Positions 34,013 to 59,968 of a stretch of DNA of 64,000 bases are shown here, one piece after another (positions within the stretch are counted from its first letter, which is position 1; each line of letters opens with the position of its first letter). Under the pieces are notes generated by a model. That model searched no databases, was not told the origin of the DNA, and saw only the letters and a list, made by a program, of their open reading frames with translations. The DNA comes from Alphaproteobacteria bacterium (GTDB lineage: Bacteria; Pseudomonadota; Alphaproteobacteria; Micropepsales; Micropepsaceae), in contig JAICHV010000002.1 of the NCBI GenBank assembly GCA_025924715.1, positions 1 to 64,000 on the forward strand. Direction: 5' to 3'. The position numbers were made by a program, and so were the translations under genes.

Positions 34013-35272
34013 ATGCCGCTCACAAACACAGCGATTCAAAACGCGAAGCCATCTGGGAAGCCCTACAAACTTTCCGATGGGAACGGCCTGTGGCTGGAAG
34101 TGCGGTCGAGCGGCGTAAAACTCTGGCGGTATCGCTATCGGATCGGCGGCAAGGAGAACGTGTTCGCCATCGGAGAATTCTGCAACGGCAAGCACCCTGC
34201 GCATATTTCGCTGGAAGCGGCGCGGCGCGCCCGAGATGAAGCCAGGGAACTCGTGCGAAAAGGCATTCATCCCTCACACAATCGGCAAGCCAAAGTACGA
34301 GATCAGGTCCGCAGCAACGGGAACACTTTTAAAGCCATCGCAGAGGAGTGGATTGCCAGGAAGTCTCCCAACTGGGTACCGAAGACCAAGGACCAGATCG
34401 TCCACGTCTTTAAGACTGACGTATTTCCAAGCATCGGCTCCCTCCCGATCACCGCTGTTACGCCTCCGGATATCCTGAAAATTCTTAATTCGGTAAATGA
34501 ACGGGGCGCCAACACGTTCGCTCATCTTATCAGACAGTGGGTTTCAGCAGTTTTCCGGTTTGCTATCGCAACCCTTCGTGCCGACAACGACCCAGCTGCC
34601 CCCCTTCAAGGGGCCATCATTCGCAACAAAACAAAACATTGCAGGGCCCTTTCTCGCGACGAACTAAAAGAGCTTTTAAACGCACTTCATACTTATGGCG
34701 GGGAGCCCGGCACCCTATTTGCGCTTCAACTCATATTGCTCACATTCGCCCGCACTATCGAGTTGCGCGCTGCAAAATGGGAAGAGTTTGACTTCAAGAA
34801 AGCGGAATGGCGTGTACCAGCCCAGCGCATGAAAATGCGCGAAGAACACGTTATCCCGCTTTCCCGCCAAGCAGTGGCGATTCTAAGGGCCCTGTATGTC
34901 ATCAATGGTCACCGGGAATACCTGTTTCCAAACCGCCGAGACCCCAAGCGCTATATCACTGCCACGACCTTGAATCGAGCTTTGGAGAGAATGGGCTTTT
35001 TAGGACAAGGTTCGATCGGTTTTTCTGCTCATGGTTTCCGGGCGACCGCTTCGACTATGTTGAACGAATCGGGATTTAGATCCGACGTGATTGAAAAGCA
35101 GTTGGCCCACCAGGAGCGTAACAAAGTTCGCGCAAGCTATAACCATGCCAGCTATATGGATGAGCGTCGGGTGATGATGCAGGTCTGGGCTGACATGATC
35201 GATGAAATTTCTGGCGAAACGTCCAATAACACGCTGGCGTTCGTACAATCGCTCACTTACCAGCCAGCCTAA
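34013..35272 (+). CDS. P4-type tyrosine recombinase / integrase
   Basis: Site-specific recombinase of integrative elements. 419 residues: the N-terminal DUF4102-like arm-binding domain (LTNTAIQNAKPSGKPYKLSDGNGLWLEVRSSGVKLWRYRYR), a SAM-like core-binding domain (about 105-185) and a catalytic domain. The catalytic residues are visible as Arg in FARTIELRAAKW, His/Arg in SAHGFRATAST, His in QLAHQERN and the Tyr in RASYNHASYMDERR. It appears intact. It marks the left side of the metal-resistance island; no right-hand junction is in the window. Confidence 0.93.
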   Translation: MPLTNTAIQNAKPSGKPYKLSDGNGLWLEVRSSGVKLWRYRYRIGGKENVFAIGEFCNGKHPAHISLEAARRARDEARELVRKGIHPSHNRQAKVRDQVRSNGNTFKAIAEEWIARKSPNWVPKTKDQIVHVFKTDVFPSIGSLPITAVTPPDILKILNSVNERGANTFAHLIRQWVSAVFRFAIATLRADNDPAAPLQGAIIRNKTKHCRALSRDELKELLNALHTYGGEPGTLFALQLILLTFARTIELRAAKWEEFDFKKAEWRVPAQRMKMREEHVIPLSRQAVAILRALYVINGHREYLFPNRRDPKRYITATTLNRALERMGFLGQGSIGFSAHGFRATASTMLNESGFRSDVIEKQLAHQERNKVRASYNHASYMDERRVMMQVWADMIDEISGETSNNTLAFVQSLTYQPA

Positions 35273-36634: not shown

Positions 36635-37390
36635 TTAAAACCACACTCTCACGCCGGCGCTGAATCGCAAGTTCGATGCGTGGTCTCCAGCAAGCCGCGC
36701 CAAGCGCGCGGTATCGCCAAACTTGTTCTCATAAGTGACACCTATATAGGGCGCCAATTTGCGTGTGATCTCATAGCGGAGTCGCAGACCTGTATCGAGA
36801 TCGGCGAGACCGGCGCCGATCATGCGCCGAGGGTCATCTTTGGAATAGAAGTTCATCTCTATTTGCGGCTGCAGTATCAAGGTCTGCGTCAAAAGCAGAT
36901 CGTAATTGCCTTCCAGCTTGCCGGCCAGGTGGCCACGGTCGCTCACATAACCCGTGGCGGAGACATGGAAAAAGAGCGGCGCCAGACCCTCGATCCCAAA
37001 GGCGGCCCAACCGCGACCGGGGGCAGAGTCGAGATCGTAGCGAAGCCCACCTTGGACATTAAAATAAGTGCTGATGGGGCGTGCGTATAGGATTTCCTGA
37101 TCGCCTTCTTCCATCACGCCCTTGGTAACCGTGCCCTCGGTCTTGAGCACGACCCGGTTCATATCGGTTCCGGCCCAGCCTTCACCCTCCCAGCGAAAGC
37201 TGCCGTCACGGCCAAAACGGCCTTCGAGCTGATCGAGGAGGAGATGATAAAAGACATGTTCATCATCCACCGGCGCGCCGAATGGCGCGGCAGCAGACGG
37301 ACCGCCCATCGTCATCTGGGCTTGGGCGGGTGCTGCGAACAATAGCGATGTAAGGCCGGCGAAGACTACCGCAAGAGGCAAGGTCTTCAT
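36635..37390 (-). CDS. copB: copper resistance protein B (outer membrane)
   Basis: 251 residues after ATG 37390, which overlaps the copA stop (ATGA). Signal peptide ending APAQA, a short Met-rich tract (QMTMGGPSAA), then the CopB barrel text: DEHVFYHLLLDQLEGRFGRDGSFRWEGEGWAGTDMNRVVLKTEG, YARPISTYFNVQGGLRYD, GDHASNLRFSAGVRVWF with a terminal Phe. CopB binds copper and may pass it out; usually paired with copA as here. The Met-rich region is much shorter than in the Pseudomonas protein. Confidence 0.93.
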   Translation of the reverse strand: MKTLPLAVVFAGLTSLLFAAPAQAQMTMGGPSAAAPFGAPVDDEHVFYHLLLDQLEGRFGRDGSFRWEGEGWAGTDMNRVVLKTEGTVTKGVMEEGDQEILYARPISTYFNVQGGLRYDLDSAPGRGWAAFGIEGLAPLFFHVSATGYVSDRGHLAGKLEGNYDLLLTQTLILQPQIEMNFYSKDDPRRMIGAGLADLDTGLRLRYEITRKLAPYIGVTYENKFGDTARLARLAGDHASNLRFSAGVRVWF

Positions 37391-39273
37391 GCCACCACCA
37401 CGGTCCGGAACATGCCCATCTCCATGTGGTAAAGGAGATGGCAATGGAATGCCCAATAACCAGGGGTATCTGCCGTGAATACGACATTCACCCGCTCGCC
37501 TGGTTTTATGTTGATGGTGTGCTTGGAAGGCATCGCATCTTGCCCATTTTCCACCTGGAAGAAAAACCCGTGCAGATGGATGGGGTGCTCCATCATCGTG
37601 TCATTGATCAGCGCAAAACGTATGCGCTCGCCCAATTTGACATGAATGGGCTCAGCCTCCGAGAATTTCTTACCATCAAAGCCCCAAGTCCAGCGCTCCA
37701 TATTGCCCGTCAAATGAAACTGCAATTCGCGCGTGGGAGGTGAGGCGTCTGCCGTCTTGAGGGCAGCAAGCAGCGCATAGGTAAGGACATTGCGACCGTT
37801 GCCGTCGAGGCCTGTACCCGCTTCCTTTTGCCGATCCTTGGTTTCCATCGCTACATTGTCTACGGCGGGCTGACCCTGCATCATCTTGGGATCGACGCCA
37901 TCAGCATTGCTTGACGGCACCTCGGCCTTGCGAATGCCCGGCATATTGGCCATGTCCGCATCCGACATGCCCGGCATCTTCATCCCGGGCATACTGTCCA
38001 TCTTCATCCCCGGCATATCCTGATGCGCCGGACCCGACATGTTCATGCCGGGCATATCGGCATGGCTATCCTTCATGCCTGGCATTCCGGGCATATCTAT
38101 ACCGGACATACCGCCCATCGACATTCCGCTCATGCCGGCCATGTCGTTCATGCCCATATCGGTCATGGTGCGCATGGGTCTCGCGTCCATTGTTGGAATA
38201 GCCGCTGCCAAACCGGCCCGTGTCGCAAGCGTGGCGCGCGCATAGCCGCTGCGGTCCTGCGCCTGCGCGAAGATCGTGTAAGCCTCAAGCTCCTCTGGCG
38301 TGACGATTGCGTCGTAGGTTTCCGCCACGCCAATCCGAAATTCATCAACGAACACGGGTTGAACATCGCCGCCGTCCGCTTGCACGATTTTCATGGGCAA
38401 TCCGGGAATACGAACATCGAAGGTCGACATCGAAGAGCCATTGATGAACCGCAGGCGTATTTTCTCGCCACGATTGAAGAGCCCCGTCCAGTTCGCGGCC
38501 GGCGGCTGACCGTTGATGAGAAAGGTGTAGGTGGAGCCGGTCACATCCATGATGTCGGTCGGACTCATGCGCATCTTGCCCCACATCAGCCTGTCGGCCA
38601 GGGTTGCGGATAGCCCCTGCCGCCTGGAATCGGCAATGAAGGTGCCGAGTGTGCGCTGGCCGTAATTGTAGTAGTCGCCCTGTTGCTTGAGATTGGACAC
38701 GACCGTCATGGGATCTTCGTCGGTCCAGTCCGAGAGCATCACGACATAATCGCGATCATAGGCGTAGGTTTCTTTGGCCTTGGGCTCAAAGATGAGCGGG
38801 CCGTAGAGGCCCGTCTGCTCCTGCATGCCGCTATGGCTGTGATACCAATATGTGCCGCCTTGGACGATCGGGAAACGGTACGTGAAGGTTTCACCCGGCA
38901 TGATCCCTTTGAAGGTCAGGCCAGGCACGCCGTCCATATTGTTGGGCAGGCGAACGCCGTGCCAGTGAATCGAGGTCGGCTCATTGAGCCGGTTGGTGAC
39001 GTTGATCGTCGCCATTTCGCCTTCCCGAAACCGAAGGATGGGCGCGGGGACGGACCCGTTCACGGCCGTCGCTGTGCGGGCGCGCCCGGTAACATTGATC
39101 GGCACGGAGCCGATTGTGAGGTTCAGCTGATTGCCAGTCAGGGTTTGTTGGGTCTCCGTTGCTGCCGCGCGGCCCGCAAACGCAAAAAGGCTCGCCGCGC
39201 CGGTTCCAGCAAGGGCAATGCCCTCGACAAAGCGCCTGCGGGTCAACGGAGAAGGCGGTATGGCGTGTTTCAA
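37387..39273 (-). CDS. copA: copper resistance multicopper oxidase CopA
   Basis: Periplasmic Cu(I) oxidase and copper sequestering protein. 628 residues. Twin-arginine signal (TRRRFVEGIALAGTGAASLFAF); cupredoxin domain 1 with SIHWHGVRLP and YWYHSHSGMQ; domain 3 with HPIHLHGFFFQ and WAFHCHLLYHMEMGM, supplying all type 1-3 copper ligands. Between residues about 370 and 455 is a long Met-rich stretch of MPGM/MGGMSG repeats, typical of CopA/PcoA. Follows the ECF sigma gene by 45 bases. Confidence 0.97.
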   Translation of the reverse strand: MKHAIPPSPLTRRRFVEGIALAGTGAASLFAFAGRAAATETQQTLTGNQLNLTIGSVPINVTGRARTATAVNGSVPAPILRFREGEMATINVTNRLNEPTSIHWHGVRLPNNMDGVPGLTFKGIMPGETFTYRFPIVQGGTYWYHSHSGMQEQTGLYGPLIFEPKAKETYAYDRDYVVMLSDWTDEDPMTVVSNLKQQGDYYNYGQRTLGTFIADSRRQGLSATLADRLMWGKMRMSPTDIMDVTGSTYTFLINGQPPAANWTGLFNRGEKIRLRFINGSSMSTFDVRIPGLPMKIVQADGGDVQPVFVDEFRIGVAETYDAIVTPEELEAYTIFAQAQDRSGYARATLATRAGLAAAIPTMDARPMRTMTDMGMNDMAGMSGMSMGGMSGIDMPGMPGMKDSHADMPGMNMSGPAHQDMPGMKMDSMPGMKMPGMSDADMANMPGIRKAEVPSSNADGVDPKMMQGQPAVDNVAMETKDRQKEAGTGLDGNGRNVLTYALLAALKTADASPPTRELQFHLTGNMERWTWGFDGKKFSEAEPIHVKLGERIRFALINDTMMEHPIHLHGFFFQVENGQDAMPSKHTINIKPGERVNVVFTADTPGYWAFHCHLLYHMEMGMFRTVVVA

Positions 39274-43252: not shown

Positions 43253-43456
43253 ATGACGGACACAAATCGGTCCAGCGGCGCATGTTGCGGCGGGACGAGT
43301 AAAACGGCACAAGGCGAACCGCACCAGCCTAGCGCAAAGCCAAATGGAGGCAGTGGGTGCGGTTGCGGCGACTCGAAAAAAACCGCCTCGGAGGTTTCTG
43401 TCCTTAAGCCGTTTACGGCGGAAAAAGCTGACGGCGGGTGCTGCGGTGGCAAGTGA
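43253..43456 (+). CDS. Cys-rich metallothionein-like mini-protein
   Basis: 67 residues with three Cys pairs: ACCGGT (11-12), GCGCGD (36 and 38) and GGCCGGK (63-64), plus Ser/Lys/Gly-rich linkers. AGAGGTGACC precedes ATG 43253; the tracked GTG at 43247 is less likely. The composition suggests copper buffering or delivery to the ATPase whose reading frame overlaps its last 11 bases. No established family recognised. Confidence 0.75.
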
Positions 43457-45848
43457 AGCCAACGAACATTCTTGCGACCACGGCGCCAAGCCCAATCAGA
43501 GCGCCAGCGGCACCGGAGCGGTAGATCCGCTGACAGACCCTGTCTGCGGTATGCGCGTCGATCCGGCAACAGCGAAGCATCGCGCCGACCATGGCGGCGA
43601 TACCTATTTTTTCTGCAGCGGGGGGTGCCGCGAGAAATTTCTCGCGGACCCTGACAAGTACATTGGCAAAGCCGATCAAGCTAACGCCTCACGTCACCAT
43701 CACGGCACCGGTCAAGAAGCCGGGCCGGGAGATGCGGACGTGATCTACACCTGCCCTATGCATCCGCAGATTCGGCAAAAGGGGCCTGGGCATTGCCCGA
43801 TCTGCGGCATGGCACTGGAACCAGTCAACGCGGCCGATGCGGACGGGCCAAATCCCGAACTTATCGATATGTCGCGCCGATTCTGGGTTGGACTGGCTTT
43901 GGCGCTGCCGGTGTTCGTCTTGGAAATGGGCGGACATCTGTTCGATCTGCATCACCTGATCGCGCCGCAGATTTCCGTCTGGGTTCAATTCGTGCTGAGC
44001 ACGCCCGTTGTTCTGTGGGCAGGCTGGCCGTTCTTTGTCCGGGGTTGGGCCTCGCTGGTAAACCGCTCGCTCAACATGTTCACCTTGATCGCGCTGGGCA
44101 TCGGCACAGCCTATGGCTACAGCGTGATCGCAACGCTTGCGCCAGGTATTTTTCCCACCACGCTGCGTATGGATGGGATGGTGCCGGTCTATTACGAGGC
44201 CGCTGCTGTCATCACCGTTTTGGTGCTGCTGGGACAGGTTTTCGAATTGCGAGCCCGTGCCGGGACGGGCAGCGCTATCCGCGCCTTGCTGAACTTGGCG
44301 CCCCCGCGGGCCTTCCGGCTGCGCGACGATGGCGGGGAGGACGACGTGTCCCTGGACGCGGTGCAGGTGGGCGACCGTCTTCGGGTAAAGCCGGGCGGTC
44401 GTGTGCCGGTGGATGGCACTGTGATCGAAGGCGCGAGTTCGGTCGATGAATCGATAGTGACAGGTGAATCCCTGTCCGTGGAAAAGGAAGCTGGCGCCAA
44501 GCTGATTGGTGGCACCGTGAATGGCACCGGTGTGCTCGTTATGCGCGCGGATAAGATCGGAAGCGACACGGTTTTGGCGCGCATCGTCGCGATGGTTTCG
44601 GACGCGCAGCGAAGCCGCGCTCCAATTCAAAGGCTGGCCGATCAGGTTTCGGGCTGGTTCGTGCCTGCAGTTATCGCGGTGGCGGTGCTTTCTTTTGCTG
44701 GCTGGATGTTTTGGGGACCGCAGCCAGCCTTCGCCAATGCGCTGGTGGCGGCAGTGTCGGTGGTCATCATCGCCTGCCCCTGTGCGCTAGGTCTCGCAAC
44801 ACCGATGTCTATCATGGTGGGCGTCGGTAAGGGCGCGGGCGCCGGCATCCTTATCAAAAATGCGGAAGCGCTGGAGCGTTTCGAGAAGGTCGATACCCTG
44901 GTGGTGGACAAGACCGGCACGCTCACCGAAGGCCGGCCGCGGTTGACCGCTATTGTGCCGGCGGAGGGTTTTGACGAAGGACGGATACTTTCATTGGCCG
45001 CAAGCCTGGAACGGTCCAGTGAACATCCCTTGGCGGCGGCTATATTGACGGCCGCAAAGGATCGAAAGGCTCCGCTATACGATGTGGCGGATTTTCGGTC
45101 GATTACCGGCAAGGGTATCTCCGGCACCGTGGATGGCAAGCAGGTCGCTGTCGGAACGGCGCAGTTGCTGAAAGATCTGAGCGTCGATTCGGCCGCGATG
45201 GATGCGCGTGCTGATGAGCTGCGGCGTGATGGCGCCACGGCAATGTTCCTGGCGGTGGATGGGCATATTGCCGGTATTCTCGCCATCGCCGATCCGATCA
45301 AATCAACGACACTGGCCGCCCTCACTCAGCTGCGGGCCAAAAACATCCGCATCGTGATGCTGACCGGGGATAACCGCACCACGGCGGAAGCTGTGGCCGC
45401 TACGCTTGGGATCAAGGAGATCGAGGCCGGCATTTTGCCAGATGGCAAAAACGCTGTGATACGCAGATTGCGGAGCGAAGGCCGCATCGTCGCGATGGCA
45501 GGTGACGGGGTCAACGATGCCCCCGCTTTGGCTGAAGCGGATATCGGCATCGCGATGGGAACCGGCACCGACGTCGCCATTGAAAGTGCTGGTGTAACGC
45601 TGGTCAAGGGCGATCTGGCCGGGATTGCACGTGCGCAAGCCTTGAGCCGAGCCACGATGAACAACATCCGCCAGAATCTTGTGCTCGCCTTTGTCTATAA
45701 CGTGATCGGGATACCGATCGCGGCGGGCGCGCTCTATCCGGCCTTCGGCCTTTTGCTCAGCCCGGTTATCGCAGCGGGGGCGATGAGCCTCAGCTCGGTA
45801 TCGGTGATTGCCAATGCCCTGCGTTTGCGTTGGACGGCGCTGGATTAG
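43446..45848 (+). CDS. P1B-type copper-exporting ATPase with YHS and heavy-metal-binding N-terminal domains
   Basis: Exports Cu(I) using ATP. About 800 residues from GTG 43446. N-terminal YHS domain ([35 protein letters not shown]), a His-rich linker, then an HMBD ([26 protein letters not shown]) in place of the usual HMA domain. Core: [17 protein letters not shown] (CPC), [31 protein letters not shown] and [11 protein letters not shown]. The last helices have [13 protein letters not shown] and SLSSVSV, the YN/SS signature of Cu(I) ATPases. The tracked start at 43344 is antisense in frame to the Cys-rich gene and unlikely. Confidence 0.95.
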
Positions 45849-51591: not shown

Positions 51592-51626
51592 GGGCGCCCT
51601 GGCCCGAAAATTTGCGTTGCAGGCCC

Positions 51627-51664
51627 TTAGCAAGTCTGCTAAGTCGCCATAGCAATTCTGCTAA
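51627..51664. promoter_or_regulatory. paired operators upstream of the XRE-His regulator
   Basis: TTAGCA-AGTC-TGCTAA (51627-51642, perfect 6-bp arms) and ATAGCA-ATTC-TGCTAA (51649-51664, near-perfect) have centres 22 bp apart, two helical turns, so two dimers could bind on one face. The second ends 7 bases before the start ATG of the XRE gene, overlapping its ribosome site region (AAGGTGACC), consistent with autorepression. Confidence 0.85.
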
Positions 51665-51671
51665 GGTGACC

Positions 51672-52007
51672 ATGACGGCTCTTCGCAAAGCGCGCAAACA
51701 GAACAATGCAGATGTCATTGCGGCACAATGTTCGCGTGTGCTGCTGGGCCTTCGCAAACATACCGGCGAAACCCAAGCGCAGGTCGCCAAGCGGCTTCGC
51801 ATGACCGAGTCTATGATTTCGCGGCTGGAAAGCGGCACCCATGTTCCCAGCCTCAAAACGCTGTGTCGTATAGCCGATGCTTTCGACAGGGAGCTGGAAA
51901 TCGCTTTCCACGAGCATGAACATACCCATGCTGACGGAACCCGCCATTCCCACCCCCATCATCACCTTGATCCCGATCATCGGCACACACATGGAGACAA
52001 AAAATGA
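51672..52007 (+). CDS. XRE-family regulator with a His-rich metal-binding tail
   Basis: 111 residues. The helix-turn-helix is about 20-75 (LLGLRKHTGETQAQVAKRLRMTESMISRLESGTHVPSLKTLCRIADAF). It is followed by a tail with about 14 His in 40 residues (HEHEHTHADGTRHSHPHHHLDPDHRHTHGDKK). I infer a metal-responsive repressor of the downstream exporter; the tail resembles His stretches of Ni/Co/Zn proteins. Its stop overlaps the exporter start (ATGA). ATG 51672 is set by the operator/ribosome-site layout; the longer ORF is upstream noise. Confidence 0.85.
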   Translation: MTALRKARKQNNADVIAAQCSRVLLGLRKHTGETQAQVAKRLRMTESMISRLESGTHVPSLKTLCRIADAFDRELEIAFHEHEHTHADGTRHSHPHHHLDPDHRHTHGDKK

Positions 52008-52669
52008 TCCAGCCCGCAGAATGGCTCCTGATCGGCGCGGTGGGCACTGTCGGCGTCCTCCACACCATGGTTCCGGATCACTGGGCGCCGATAACATTGC
52101 TAGCCCGTCAGCGCGGATGGTCGCGAGGACAAACCGCACGCGCCGCACTCGGCGCGGGAACTGGCCACGTTGTCTCTACCCTACTTTTGGGATTGCTTGT
52201 CTGGGGGGCCGGTGTCGCTGTCGCCGCGAAGTTCGGCCACTGGATTGAAATCCTCTCCAGTATCGCGCTGATCAGTTTTGGGCTGTGGATTGCTGTTTCT
52301 GGCTGGCGCGAAATGGTCGCGGAACGCGACCATGAACAGGCGCACACCCATGGGCACGCCCACAGTCACGATCATGATCCGACGGCTAAAGGCCAAAGAA
52401 CCGCGTTACTTCTGATTGTGGGTTCCTCGCCCATGATTGAAGGGCTCCCCGCCTTCTTCGCGGCAGGCAAATATGGAATTGGGCTGATTGTGACCATGTC
52501 ACTCGTCTTTGCGGCCGCCACTATCGCAACGTATGTCGCGCTGTGCGTGGGATCAGTCGCAGGTCTACAGCGCGTTTCGCTCGGGCCGCTGGAAAAATAC
52601 GGCGAAGTCCTGAGCGGCCTGTTTATCGCTGCGGTGGGCGTTATCTTTTGGATATGGCCGATCCTTTGA
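52004..52669 (+). CDS. NicO-like nickel/cobalt exporter-type membrane protein
   Basis: 221 residues with six predicted helices. The N-terminal helix has GVLHTMVPDHWAPITLLAR, an HxxxPDHW motif like the His-Asp motif of NicO/RcnA exporters. The central loop is His-rich (DHEQAHTHGHAHSHDHD), as in RcnA. Later SSPMIEGLPAFFAAGKYG. Probably exports a divalent cation. Translationally coupled to the XRE-His regulator. The metal (Ni, Co, or Zn) is not determinable from sequence. Confidence 0.82.
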   Translation: MIQPAEWLLIGAVGTVGVLHTMVPDHWAPITLLARQRGWSRGQTARAALGAGTGHVVSTLLLGLLVWGAGVAVAAKFGHWIEILSSIALISFGLWIAVSGWREMVAERDHEQAHTHGHAHSHDHDPTAKGQRTALLLIVGSSPMIEGLPAFFAAGKYGIGLIVTMSLVFAAATIATYVALCVGSVAGLQRVSLGPLEKYGEVLSGLFIAAVGVIFWIWPIL

Positions 52670-52723: not shown

Positions 52724-53872
52724 ATGCTGCCTGAGAAGCGTCATACCTGGTTAATTATCGTCGCACTGGTTATCGTCGCCGCGGGGAGCGGCTTTGGCAT
52801 TGCGCGTTGGACCGGACAGCCCCTCCCAACCCCCACTGCCGCTCCCGCGCCAGTGGGGCCGGCGACACTGAAAATCGATTTCAAGGAGATTGCCGCTGCG
52901 GGGATCGTTGTCGAGCCGGCTGTTGGTGGAAATCTGAATGCTGAAATACTAGCTCCAGCGACGACGGCGGCGCAGCCTAATGGCGTTGCCACCCTGACCG
53001 CCCACGCCGAAGGGATAATCTCGCGCCTCAACAAGCGGCTGGGTGATCCGGTCAGGGCGGGCGAGGTACTGGCAGTTGTGGACAGCAAGGATGCGGCGCA
53101 GATTGCGTCTGACCGCGCTAGCGCGGAAGCAAGAGCCGTGTTAGCGCGTCGGATCGCAGAGCAGGAAGACTCGCTTTTCCAGCAGGGGGCAACCTCAAAA
53201 CGATCACTGCAAACGGCACAGGCGAGCCTCGCGGCAGCAGAGGCGGATACCCAGCGCGCCCGAAATGCCGCAGCCACCGTCAATCTCGCATCGGACGGCC
53301 ACTCTGTTGCGGTGATTAGCCCCCTGTCCGGCCGTATAACCGCGCAGACAGCGGCGTTGGGTGCCTATGTCCGAACGGAAACGGAGCTGTTCCGAATCTC
53401 CGATCCCCGCCTGGTCCAAGTCGAGGTCCAGCTGGCCGCCATCGACGCTGCGCGTGTACAACCGGGCGATCCGGCAATCTTGATGTTGCCCAATGGTGCC
53501 ACCGCCAGGGCGGTCGTGCGATCCGTCACGCCCGCGCTCGATCCCCAGACCAAAACCCAGACCGCTGTGCTGTCGGTGCCGGACGGCCTTCCCCTGGCCC
53601 CCGGCCAAACCTTGCAAGTCCGCATCAGTCTCAAAAGCACTGCGGCGACCGGAATTATCCTTCCCGAGGAAGCCGTGCAGATGATCGATGGCCGCGACGC
53701 AGTATTCGCGCGAACCAACAACGGTTTTATCGTTCGCCATGTAGCGGTTGGATCGCGTGGCGCGGGGCGCGCTTCAATTATATCTGGATTGCAGCCGGGC
53801 GAGCAGATTGCCACCCGCAACGCTTTTCTGCTGAAGGCCGAGCTTGGTAAAGGCGGTGAGGACGAGGAATGA
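52724..53872 (+). CDS. czcB: CzcB-type RND periplasmic adaptor
   Basis: 382 residues with an N-terminal anchor (TWLIIVALVIVAAGSGFGIARW), a barrel-sandwich with paired lipoyl halves (AHAEGIISRLNKRLGDPVRAGEVLAVVDSKD; VISPLSGRITAQTAALGAYV), a helical hairpin (about 135-190) and a beta-barrel (VQLAAIDAARVQPGDPAILMLPNG). CGGAGG-type ribosome site before ATG 52724. Stop overlaps the czcA start. Confidence 0.92.
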   Translation: MLPEKRHTWLIIVALVIVAAGSGFGIARWTGQPLPTPTAAPAPVGPATLKIDFKEIAAAGIVVEPAVGGNLNAEILAPATTAAQPNGVATLTAHAEGIISRLNKRLGDPVRAGEVLAVVDSKDAAQIASDRASAEARAVLARRIAEQEDSLFQQGATSKRSLQTAQASLAAAEADTQRARNAAATVNLASDGHSVAVISPLSGRITAQTAALGAYVRTETELFRISDPRLVQVEVQLAAIDAARVQPGDPAILMLPNGATARAVVRSVTPALDPQTKTQTAVLSVPDGLPLAPGQTLQVRISLKSTAATGIILPEEAVQMIDGRDAVFARTNNGFIVRHVAVGSRGAGRASIISGLQPGEQIATRNAFLLKAELGKGGEDEE

Positions 53873-57463: not shown

Positions 57464-58825
57464 TTATGGGAACTTCAGTTCAACTCGAAGTCCAGGAGTG
57501 TTGTTTTCCAAGCTTAAACGAATTTCGTGTAGCGCTGCGATCGCCGCGACGAGAGCCAGCCCCAAACCCGAACCCGGCATGTTGCGGCTCCGGTCAAGAC
57601 GATAAAAGCGCGCCAATACCTTCGATCGCTCACTGTCCGGAATACCCGGGCCGTTATCGGAGATACTGGCTATCACCTGACCATTCACCGAAGATAGGGT
57701 GCTATTAATTTGAGTACCTGGCGGCGTATGGCCGAGCGCATTATCGATCAGGTTGGTGAACATCTGTGCCAGTAATTCGCCGTCTCCTTGAACGGAAATA
57801 TCTGCCATGTGATCGGCTACCAACACTTTCTGCAGATCTTCCGCAACCGGCTGGTAGGCCAAATAGACCCTGTTCATAATCTCGCTCAAATCGACCACGC
57901 CGAAGCGCTGGCGCCCGATCCCCCCCTCCAACGAACCGATGCGCAGCAGCGCTCTAAATATCGTAAGGATATTGTCTGTCTGGGCGATTGCCAGCTCCAC
58001 TCCGGCATCGTAGTTCTCGATCGAGCTGGACTCGCGCGTGGCCTCAAGGTGTTGCCGAAGGCGACTCAAAGGTGTACGGAGATCGTGCGCTATATCCGTC
58101 GAGACTTGCCGCATTCCTTCCATGAGCGCTCCAATTCTATCCAACATTCGGTTTAGATTGGCCGACAGGGCGTCGAATTCAGGACTCATTCCGATTGTGG
58201 GTAAGCGCTCAGCTAGATTGCCCTCCATAATGCGCGAAACTGATTCATTGACGCGGTCCAATCGCCGCATAAAAAGGCCACCGATTACAAAACCTCCTAC
58301 CAGCGCGAAAAGCGAAATTCCGGCCCCACTCCAGATAGTGAACAGGTTTAGTCTGTGCCGAAGCTCCTGCACATCGTAGGCGTCGGTAGCGATGACAAGC
58401 AAACTCCCGTCGCTCAAGCGCGTCCCGAAACTTTTCAGTTGTTCAATGCCGCCCTCCCGATCGGTACCGACATCATCGTCAGCGATCAAAACGGTACCCC
58501 AGCCTAGCCCCGCCCTACCGCCGCCAAGATCGTTGACCAATATCTTGCCGTCTGCGTCTTCGAACAGGTAACGGAACTGCTGCTCCCGAGCCGAATGGCG
58601 GTGCCGTTGAATCGCCGTGAGCAAGGCCTTACGGCCACCTTCACGATCTTCGGTGGAAAGTACCGCTGCTTCACTTTGCAGGCTGCCTGCAATTGCTTCC
58701 TGCGCATAGCGGGAGATAGAGCTCTCGACCGTCCATAACAATATCAGCGAACCCGCCGCAAAAAGGAGAGCGAGCAACGAAGCAAAGCGAAACGCTCCGC
58801 TGCGAAATATTTCAGCCCGCCGCAT
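57464..58825 (-). CDS. HAMP-containing sensor histidine kinase
   Basis: 453 residues with two membrane helices (ASLLALLFAAGSLILLW near 15-32 and WSGAGISLFALVGGFVIGGLF near 165-186) enclosing a periplasmic domain of about 130 residues. HAMP follows (RRLDRVNESVSRIMEGNL), then HisKA with His247 (DIAHDLRTPLSRLRQHLE) and HATPase (FTNLIDNALGHTPPG, ISDNGPGIPDSE, GSGLGLALV). Overlaps the response-regulator end by 14 bases. Likely metal sensing from context, but the sensor domain has no clear metal motif. Confidence 0.92.
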   Translation of the reverse strand: MRRAEIFRSGAFRFASLLALLFAAGSLILLWTVESSISRYAQEAIAGSLQSEAAVLSTEDREGGRKALLTAIQRHRHSAREQQFRYLFEDADGKILVNDLGGGRAGLGWGTVLIADDDVGTDREGGIEQLKSFGTRLSDGSLLVIATDAYDVQELRHRLNLFTIWSGAGISLFALVGGFVIGGLFMRRLDRVNESVSRIMEGNLAERLPTIGMSPEFDALSANLNRMLDRIGALMEGMRQVSTDIAHDLRTPLSRLRQHLEATRESSSIENYDAGVELAIAQTDNILTIFRALLRIGSLEGGIGRQRFGVVDLSEIMNRVYLAYQPVAEDLQKVLVADHMADISVQGDGELLAQMFTNLIDNALGHTPPGTQINSTLSSVNGQVIASISDNGPGIPDSERSKVLARFYRLDRSRNMPGSGLGLALVAAIAALHEIRLSLENNTPGLRVELKFP

Positions 58826-59489
58826 TGATCCGGTATCCCGCCCCCCGAATAGTATGAATCAACTCCTGGCCGAAGCCACGGTCCACTTTGGAGCGCAAAC
58901 GGCTCATGTGGCTTTCTATGACGTTGGTGTTGGGATCAAAATGAAACGACCACACATTCTCCAACAGCATCGTGCGCGTTACGACTTCGCCGGCGTGTCG
59001 CATGAGGTACTCCAGGAGTTTGAATTCCTGCGCCTGAAGATCAATTAATCGATTTCCGCGCCGCACTGTTCGTTTGACCAGATCAACCTCCAAGTCGGCG
59101 ATGCGCAAAACTGTCACTACATCGGAGACCGGCTGGCGCCTGCCAAGGGCATTAACACGTGCCAAGAACTCAATCGCGGCGAACGGCTTCACAAGATAGT
59201 CGTCTGCGCCCGCATCCAGCCCCTCCACCCGGTCATTCACCCCGTCCATTGCAGTCAGAAATAGTGCCGGCGTCCGAATCCCCGCCGCGCGCAACGCTTT
59301 CAACACACCGAGTCCCTCAATGCCGGAAACCATCCGATCGAGGATCAGAACGGAATATGCATTGCTTGATCCAAGAAAAATCGCGTCTTGACCGGTTGCG
59401 CAGGTGTCCACGACATGGCCAGCGGCGGTGAGAGCGCGCTCAAGATGGGTCCGTGTTGTCTCATCGTCTTCCAGCAACAGGAGCTTCAC
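58812..59489 (-). CDS. OmpR-family response regulator
   Basis: 225 residues. Receiver with LLLEDDETTRTHLE, phospho-acceptor Asp51 (SVLILDRMVSG), TAMDG and DDYLVKPF. Winged-helix output with VLRIADLEVDLVKRTVRRGNRLIDLQAQEFKLLEYLMRHAGEVVTRTMLLENVW and HIRGAGYRI-type ending (HTIRGAGYRINA). First gene of the leftward two-component operon and divergent from the PepSY gene and the third RND system, its likely targets. Confidence 0.95.
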   Translation of the reverse strand: MKLLLLEDDETTRTHLERALTAAGHVVDTCATGQDAIFLGSSNAYSVLILDRMVSGIEGLGVLKALRAAGIRTPALFLTAMDGVNDRVEGLDAGADDYLVKPFAAIEFLARVNALGRRQPVSDVVTVLRIADLEVDLVKRTVRRGNRLIDLQAQEFKLLEYLMRHAGEVVTRTMLLENVWSFHFDPNTNVIESHMSRLRSKVDRGFGQELIHTIRGAGYRINAAG

Positions 59490-59653: not shown

Positions 59654-59968
59654 ATGAAAATCACCACCACTGTCATTGCGTTGGCGGCGATTGCCGCTGG
59701 TACTTCCGCCTACGCGCAGGCCGCGCATCCCCTGAAAGGCGCAGAACTCGCGCCGATGGCCCATGTGACTCTGGCAGACGCCCGGGCCGTCGGCCTGAAA
59801 GCGCGGCCGGGTACCATTGTTGACCAGGAATTGGAAAAGGAATCCGGCGGCAGTGGCCTCCGCTATTCCTTCGACATCAAGAGCGCCGGAAAAGTTTATG
59901 AGGTAGGTGTCGACGCCAAGACCGGACGTGTGCTGGAAAACGGCGCGGAAGGAAAGAATCCCGACTGA
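59654..59968 (+). CDS. PepSY-domain periplasmic protein
   Basis: 104 residues: signal peptide ending TSAYAQ, then a PepSY unit (HVTLADARAVGLKARPGTIVDQELEKESGGSGLRYSFDIKSAGKVYEVGVDAKTGRVLEN). Small PepSY proteins often sit beside metal-responsive two-component systems and may inhibit a protease or modulate the sensor. ATG 59654 by the signal peptide. Confidence 0.88.
   Translation: MKITTTVIALAAIAAGTSAYAQAAHPLKGAELAPMAHVTLADARAVGLKARPGTIVDQELEKESGGSGLRYSFDIKSAGKVYEVGVDAKTGRVLENGAEGKNPD

Follow-up and report, generated by a model that had tools for sequence, protein, structure and literature searches.

A His-tailed XRE-family regulator with twin start-codon operators as a candidate metal-responsive repressor of RcnA-related exporter genes in Alphaproteobacteria

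The stretch of DNA analysed here, 64,000 nucleotides in length and called the window below, carries a small regulator gene that runs directly into a gene for a membrane exporter. The regulator gene (51672..52007, +) starts with an ATG at 51672, stops at 52005-52007 and encodes 111 amino acids. Its HTH_3 domain, at about residues 27-76 (51750..51899, +), scores 43.1 bits against PF01381, for which the gathering cut-off is 23, and this places the protein in the XRE family; PF02583 (Trns_repr_metal, the RcnR/CsoR family) gave no match on it, and the families that it did match were all of the HTH type. Directly behind this domain, a few residues at most after the final helix of the HTH, begins a His-rich tail (residues 79-111; 51906..52004, +; FHEHEHTHADGTRHSHPHHHLDPDHRHTHGDKK) with 12 His in 33 residues. 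The sequence-only reading had seen the helix-turn-helix domain and the His-rich tail in one protein, which is borne out, and had counted about 14 His in the tail, a figure that belongs to the whole protein. As a control for the tail, we looked at 29 other XRE-type hits from 61 related genomes, and the richest 30-residue stretch among them held 4 His. The predicted structure is poor and unusable (mean pLDDT 57.5), with the tail at low confidence and its end unstructured. We regard the gene product as a candidate for a metal-responsive autorepressor.

Two palindromes lie just before the start codon. Operator 1 (CTTAGCAAGTCTGCTAAG; 51626..51643) is a perfect CTTAGCA-AGTC-TGCTAAG, matching at 14 of 14 half-site bases, and the same motif occurs upstream of four homologues; operator 2 (CATAGCAATTCTGCTAAG; 51648..51665), 22 bp from operator 1, reads CATAGCA-ATTC-TGCTAAG and has one mismatch (13/14 half-site bases). 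The pair and its 22-bp start-to-start spacing had been noticed earlier and hold, with the correction that each site spans 18 bp (7-4-7, consensus CTTAGCA-N4-TGCTAAG) and not 16. From the end of operator 2 to the regulator ATG there are 6 bp, and what we read as the likely ribosome-binding sequence, AAGGTGA (51663..51669, +), overlaps the end of this operator. No other site in the whole 64-kb window comes within one mismatch of the consensus, and 100 shuffles yielded none; in the rest of the 3.7-Mb genome the best other sites have two mismatches and are no commoner than those of a reversed-pattern control. A scan with the consensus promoter found no sigma-70-like site at the operators.

The exporter gene (52004..52669, +; 221 aa) opens at an ATG, position 52004, that lies within an ATGA shared with the regulator stop, and its product has a second His-rich loop with 7 His by sequence count (residues 105-130; 52316..52393, +; the stretch 116-141 of the structure model is of low confidence); both the overlap and the loop had been claimed from the letters, and rightly. 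How near the protein stands to NicO is a more delicate matter. It gave no match to PF03824 up to E 0.1 and 25.4 bits against NF007454, whose cut-off is 195, and because these scores lie under the curated NicO and RcnA cut-offs we call it a distant relative only. When the insert-free exporter subfamily was aligned to RcnA with hhalign, the result was 97.6% over 215 columns, which indicates remote homology over the membrane part, and a control with a His-rich CDF protein gave 55.9% over 16 columns. By these profiles the window exporter is a distant relative of RcnA/NicO and not a member; the earlier label "NicO-like" therefore stands as a remote profile relationship to RcnA and fails at the Pfam and NCBIfam thresholds. 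The structure model is of moderate quality (mean pLDDT 73.6), and Foldseek found no match for it in the PDB up to E 0.001. With RcnA/NicO (PF03824, NF007454) it shares the position of a paired-His motif near the start (LHxxxPxH), the His loop and, in the long forms, an insert; it differs in the motif itself, LHTxVPDHWxPI in the window-type subfamily as against LHGLEPGHSKT, and in the SSPMxEGxPAFFAA found in the second half. A plasmid search with the window exporter gave no match, and the longer homologue in L034 then tied the family to plasmid RcnA (29% over 361 columns with RcnA of an Enterobacter ludwigii plasmid, E 2e-31). The inserted domain of the long forms, present also in long plasmid RcnA, is absent from E. 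coli RcnA and from the window exporter. It sits within the His loop (L033:6336-7346, L034:1702-2682 and L064:1360-2469), follows the pattern LSIFExGxPPxFRL...ESxxxIPEPHxF...GHxHxYxxxFxEHxHDH, is common to the long RcnA of enterobacterial plasmids and the long forms of the window-type exporter family, and had no clear Pfam match. Another exporter-like family with a long His loop (FHTAIPTHWLPF; L076, L077, L078 and L080, in genomes G810, G799, G034 and G803) is remote kin of the window exporter.

The cassette is probably part of a metal-resistance genomic island. On its upstream side, a CusA/CzcA-type RND pump (TIGR00914; 48460..51591, +) ends 80 bp before the regulator start, in an order that recurs in L033; on its downstream side, about 55 bp beyond the exporter, begins the gene for a CzcB-type adaptor, an RND membrane-fusion protein (52724-53872, +), and after it comes a second pump, of the CzcA type (TIGR00914; 53869-57105, +). 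With RND genes so close on both sides, the exporter may not be the only target of the regulator, or transcription may reach the regulator from upstream, and the sequence-only description of a self-contained cassette was too strong. Judged by RND signature motifs, the upstream pump would presumably belong to the Cu/Ag type (GAMVDAAIVMIENAHK), and its downstream counterpart to the divalent-metal type (DFGLIIDGAVIIVEN). As side observations on this half of the window (32000-64000), the G+C content, about 0.64 up to roughly 32 kb, is lower beyond that point, at 0.56-0.61, a phage-type integrase gene (34013-35272) is followed by a multicopper oxidase (37387-39273) and a P-type ATPase for heavy metals, which has YHS and HMBD domains (43344-45848), and the same stretch includes an outer-membrane efflux gene at 59907 and a two-component system (57464-59489, -) as well as the two RND pump sets.

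Together with the window protein, four further homologues at 54-75% identity (L033, L034, L085 and L031) make up a set of five regulators. Scanning genome contigs gave full-length proteins in L033 and L034, 70% and 75% identical to the window regulator, which were taken as the same records as G808:C456 and G803:C56 and counted once each; a family search over 96 genomes recovered the window, L033 and L034 and added L085 (genome G782, another genus; 71% identical); and L031, on a Sphingobium yanoikuyae plasmid, is 54-56% identical. Samples of the class (385 genomes) and of the phylum (398 genomes) yielded, beyond the window's own, only generic XRE proteins at about 53 bits with no His tail, and a scan of viral contigs with the regulator alignment found no relative. 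One further family (164 genomes) gave no match, which is uninformative because no positive control was present there. The sample is small, with five homologues, two of which come from metagenome assemblies of the same genus and one of which has no exporter.

Within this set the tail is remarkably constant. Its core, FHxHxHxHxDGTRHxHxHxH, is kept in all five proteins, and the spacing of the His core right after the last HTH helix is fixed throughout, even in the protein without an exporter. For the tail, pS was 0.83-1.24, which is near saturation, and pN 0.07-0.15 over the six pairs among four homologues, with pN as low as that of the HTH; synonymous sites near saturation combined with low pN indicate that the tail is under purifying selection. 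A homologue that stands beside an exporter and lacks the tail was looked for, and every full-length homologue proved to be tailed. As for the same combination next to an exporter elsewhere, which the sequence-only reading had proposed to search for, the regulator gene runs straight into an exporter gene, sharing 4 nt with it, in three of the four homologues.

The putative operator, too, recurs at the start codon in 5/5 loci, perfect in the window, L034 and L031 and with one mismatch at best in L033 and L085. Twin sites stand just before the start codon in L033 (CTTCGCACATTTGCTAAG and CTTTGCATCTTTGCTAAG), L034 (CTTAGCACCTTTGCTAAG and CTTTCCAATTTTGCGAAG) and L085 (CTTAGCAGATTTGCTAAT and CTTTGCAAATTTGCTAAG), each pair spaced at 23 bp as against 22 bp in the window, and L031 has a single perfect site (CTTAGCAATTTTGCTAAG) 8 bp before the start. 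Exporter relatives without the His-tailed regulator had no such site, and exact matches to the operator, found in 5 of 288 other genomes of the class, were in no case beside a gene of this kind; since the exact matches elsewhere do not lie beside such a gene, we read the motif as travelling with the regulator and not with the exporter. There is thus strong comparative evidence that the palindromes are the regulator's own operators, to which the protein would be expected to bind. In the S. yanoikuyae plasmids (L031:5495-6366, and L032), where the tailed XRE regulator occurs without an exporter, the single perfect operator sits between the regulator and a divergent fdxA, and downstream of the regulator lie genes for a GAF protein and for aldehyde and alcohol dehydrogenases. 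This arrangement weighs against a general tie to metal export, as do the sub-threshold scores of the window exporter and its want of a match among solved structures.

The partner genes overlap the regulator stop by 4 nt (ATGA or GTGA) in the window, L033, L034 and L085, and belong to one exporter subfamily in the first three loci, with the LHTxVPDHWxPI motif, the His loop and the SSPMxEGxPAFFAA stretch. The partner in L085 is an unmistakable RcnA (399.8 bits against NF007454, cut-off 195; 119.7 bits against PF03824), and just downstream of it, on the other strand, are the cobalt-uptake genes for CbiO and CbiQ. Comparison at the level of sequence therefore establishes a family of tailed regulators with putative operators at the start codon and, in four loci, a 4-nt overlap with genes for RcnA-class exporters. 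The pairing of a metal regulator with an exporter, as it had been suggested for the window, is strengthened by this true RcnA beside CbiO/CbiQ. Linkage to Ni/Co transport genes is found in L085, and in the window it runs only through distant similarity. The CbiO-type ATPase beside the pair in L085 (L085:8322-9239, -) has an insertion with HGHSHDDGSG inside its ATP-binding domain.

From all this we infer repression, the kind of metal and a sensing role of the tail, and we consider it likely that the protein acts on the regulator-exporter operon as an autoregulated repressor, which plays the part of RcnR before an RcnA-class exporter, though built on an unrelated fold, and would be relieved by metal through its His tail. 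In such a mechanism, two dimers would sit on the two palindromes, 22-23 bp apart and facing almost the same side of the helix; this distance is about two helical turns, which suggests dimers side by side. The bound dimers would cover the promoter and ribosome-binding region and block both genes, and the position of the operators, in the gap that separates the start codon from the upstream gene and with overlap onto the ribosome-binding sequence, does favour repression. When cytoplasmic Ni(II) or Co(II), or less likely Zn or Cu, rises, the ion would bind the His tail next to the HTH, its obvious site on the protein, and weaken operator binding, and the exporter would be made, perhaps with its own His loop helping to load the ion. 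Release of the repressor by metal would be the expected direction because an exporter operon should be induced by the ion that it exports.

Which ion this might be is the point at which the strongest rival enters, in that the system may be metal-responsive and yet have Zn/Cd or Cu as its cognate metal, as for the flanking RND pumps, and control czcB-czcA as much as the exporter. The position of the exporter between two TIGR00914 pumps, with the P-type ATPase and the multicopper oxidase on the same stretch, makes Zn, Cd or Cu possible in the window genome, and the short distance to the czcB-like gene argues in the same direction. However, L034 and L085 hold the pair with no adjoining RND pump, and the RcnA of L085 beside CbiO/CbiQ favours Ni or Co, so we hold this variant to be unlikely, if still the most serious of the alternatives. 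Slightly less probable still is a reading that keeps the same repressor and operators and makes the tail a metal buffer or store, the signal being sensed elsewhere (at Cys20 and nearby residues, through another ligand, or by loss of the protein). Storage or buffering of metal by a His-rich tail need not involve sensing, and His-rich tails and loops are common as metal stores; the tail was predicted with low confidence and an unstructured end, and Cys20 is present in 5/5 proteins. Against it, a His core fixed in its spacing in every protein, even the exporter-less one, is more than a loose store needs. That the protein is an ordinary XRE regulator of the HigA/HipB antitoxin type, with an incidental tail and a coincidental neighbour, is very improbable, for although antitoxins and phage repressors come nearest to it by sequence, among family models and solved structures alike, there is no adjacent toxin gene, the neighbours are exporters and RND pumps, tail and operator occur in 5/5 and the exporter overlap in four loci, and a tail of this kind is missing from all 29 generic XRE hits.

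The likely metal-relieved repressor has a close functional parallel in RcnR-RcnA of E. coli, where a cytoplasmic repressor likewise stands before a Ni/Co exporter with a His loop and has a pair of operators, each of the form TACT-G6-N-AGTA; the L085 homologue is itself coupled to a true RcnA. RcnR, however, is an all-helical protein of the RcnR/CsoR family, encoded divergently to rcnA in E. coli, whereas the present regulator is an XRE protein with a His tail, encoded by the first gene of its operon and provided with the operator CTTAGCA-N4-TGCTAAG. The alphaproteobacterial Co/Ni system DmeR-DmeF resembles it in having the gene for a metal repressor directly before that for an exporter, but its repressor DmeR is an RcnR/CsoR-family protein and its exporter DmeF one of the CDF type. 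With XRE proteins of the HigA/HipB/Cro type it shares the HTH_3 domain and palindromes at its own promoter, the best solved match by sequence being a HigA antitoxin; unlike them, it has no toxin partner and carries a His tail instead of a ligand or oligomerisation domain. A 2019 review of nickel regulators covers NikR, RcnR, InrS, DmeR, NmtR, KmtR, NimR and Nur, and, of the seven main families of bacterial metalloregulators, credits five with nickel regulators (NikR, RcnR/CsoR, ArsR, MerR and Fur), with no mention of XRE. In the open literature, to which our search was confined, we found no precedent for an XRE protein with nickel, RcnA, metalloregulation or a His-rich terminus. One paper that mentions an XRE regulator was rejected as a precedent, since it names XRE only near an insertion element. 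The type of system, a repressor plus an exporter, is known, and the type of sensor appears to be new; as its relatives keep the tail, the operators and mostly the kind of neighbour, the regulator probably represents a new type of metal-sensing switch. If so, a DNA-binding domain of the phage-repressor type joined to a His tail would represent a different and very simple design for sensing metal, and could serve as a compact part for metal biosensors.

It is instructive, finally, to see which regulators accompany exporters of these types elsewhere. RcnA, by the threshold used, was present in 8 genomes of a sample of 152 from the class, and in 5 of these 8 alphaproteobacterial genomes a gene of the RcnR/CsoR family lies within 1.5 kb of it. 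In two same-genus genomes, a CsoR-family gene and a CDF exporter gene are followed by a relative of the window exporter, and the other members of the genus that we examined had no His-tailed XRE gene close to their exporter relatives. With RcnR/CsoR-type genes at these exporters elsewhere, the tailed XRE protein stands in the place of the usual Ni/Co repressor, and regulator exchange is thereby brought into view, as the same exporter types are found behind either an RcnR/CsoR-type or a His-tailed XRE regulator. We would go further only tentatively, and at somewhat less than even confidence, to propose a new structural class of Ni/Co-sensing repressor, in which an XRE HTH with a flexible C-terminal His tail as its sensor would have replaced RcnR/DmeR at RcnA-class exporters in some Alphaproteobacteria, bringing with it a portable CTTAGCA-N4-TGCTAAG twin operator. 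The CsoR-led units of the two same-genus genomes (L047:142-2484 and L046:813-3137) deserve a note of their own: their CDF exporter has a His-rich N-terminus, their relative of the window exporter is a long one, and the three genes together look like a dmeRF operon to which a third gene has been added.
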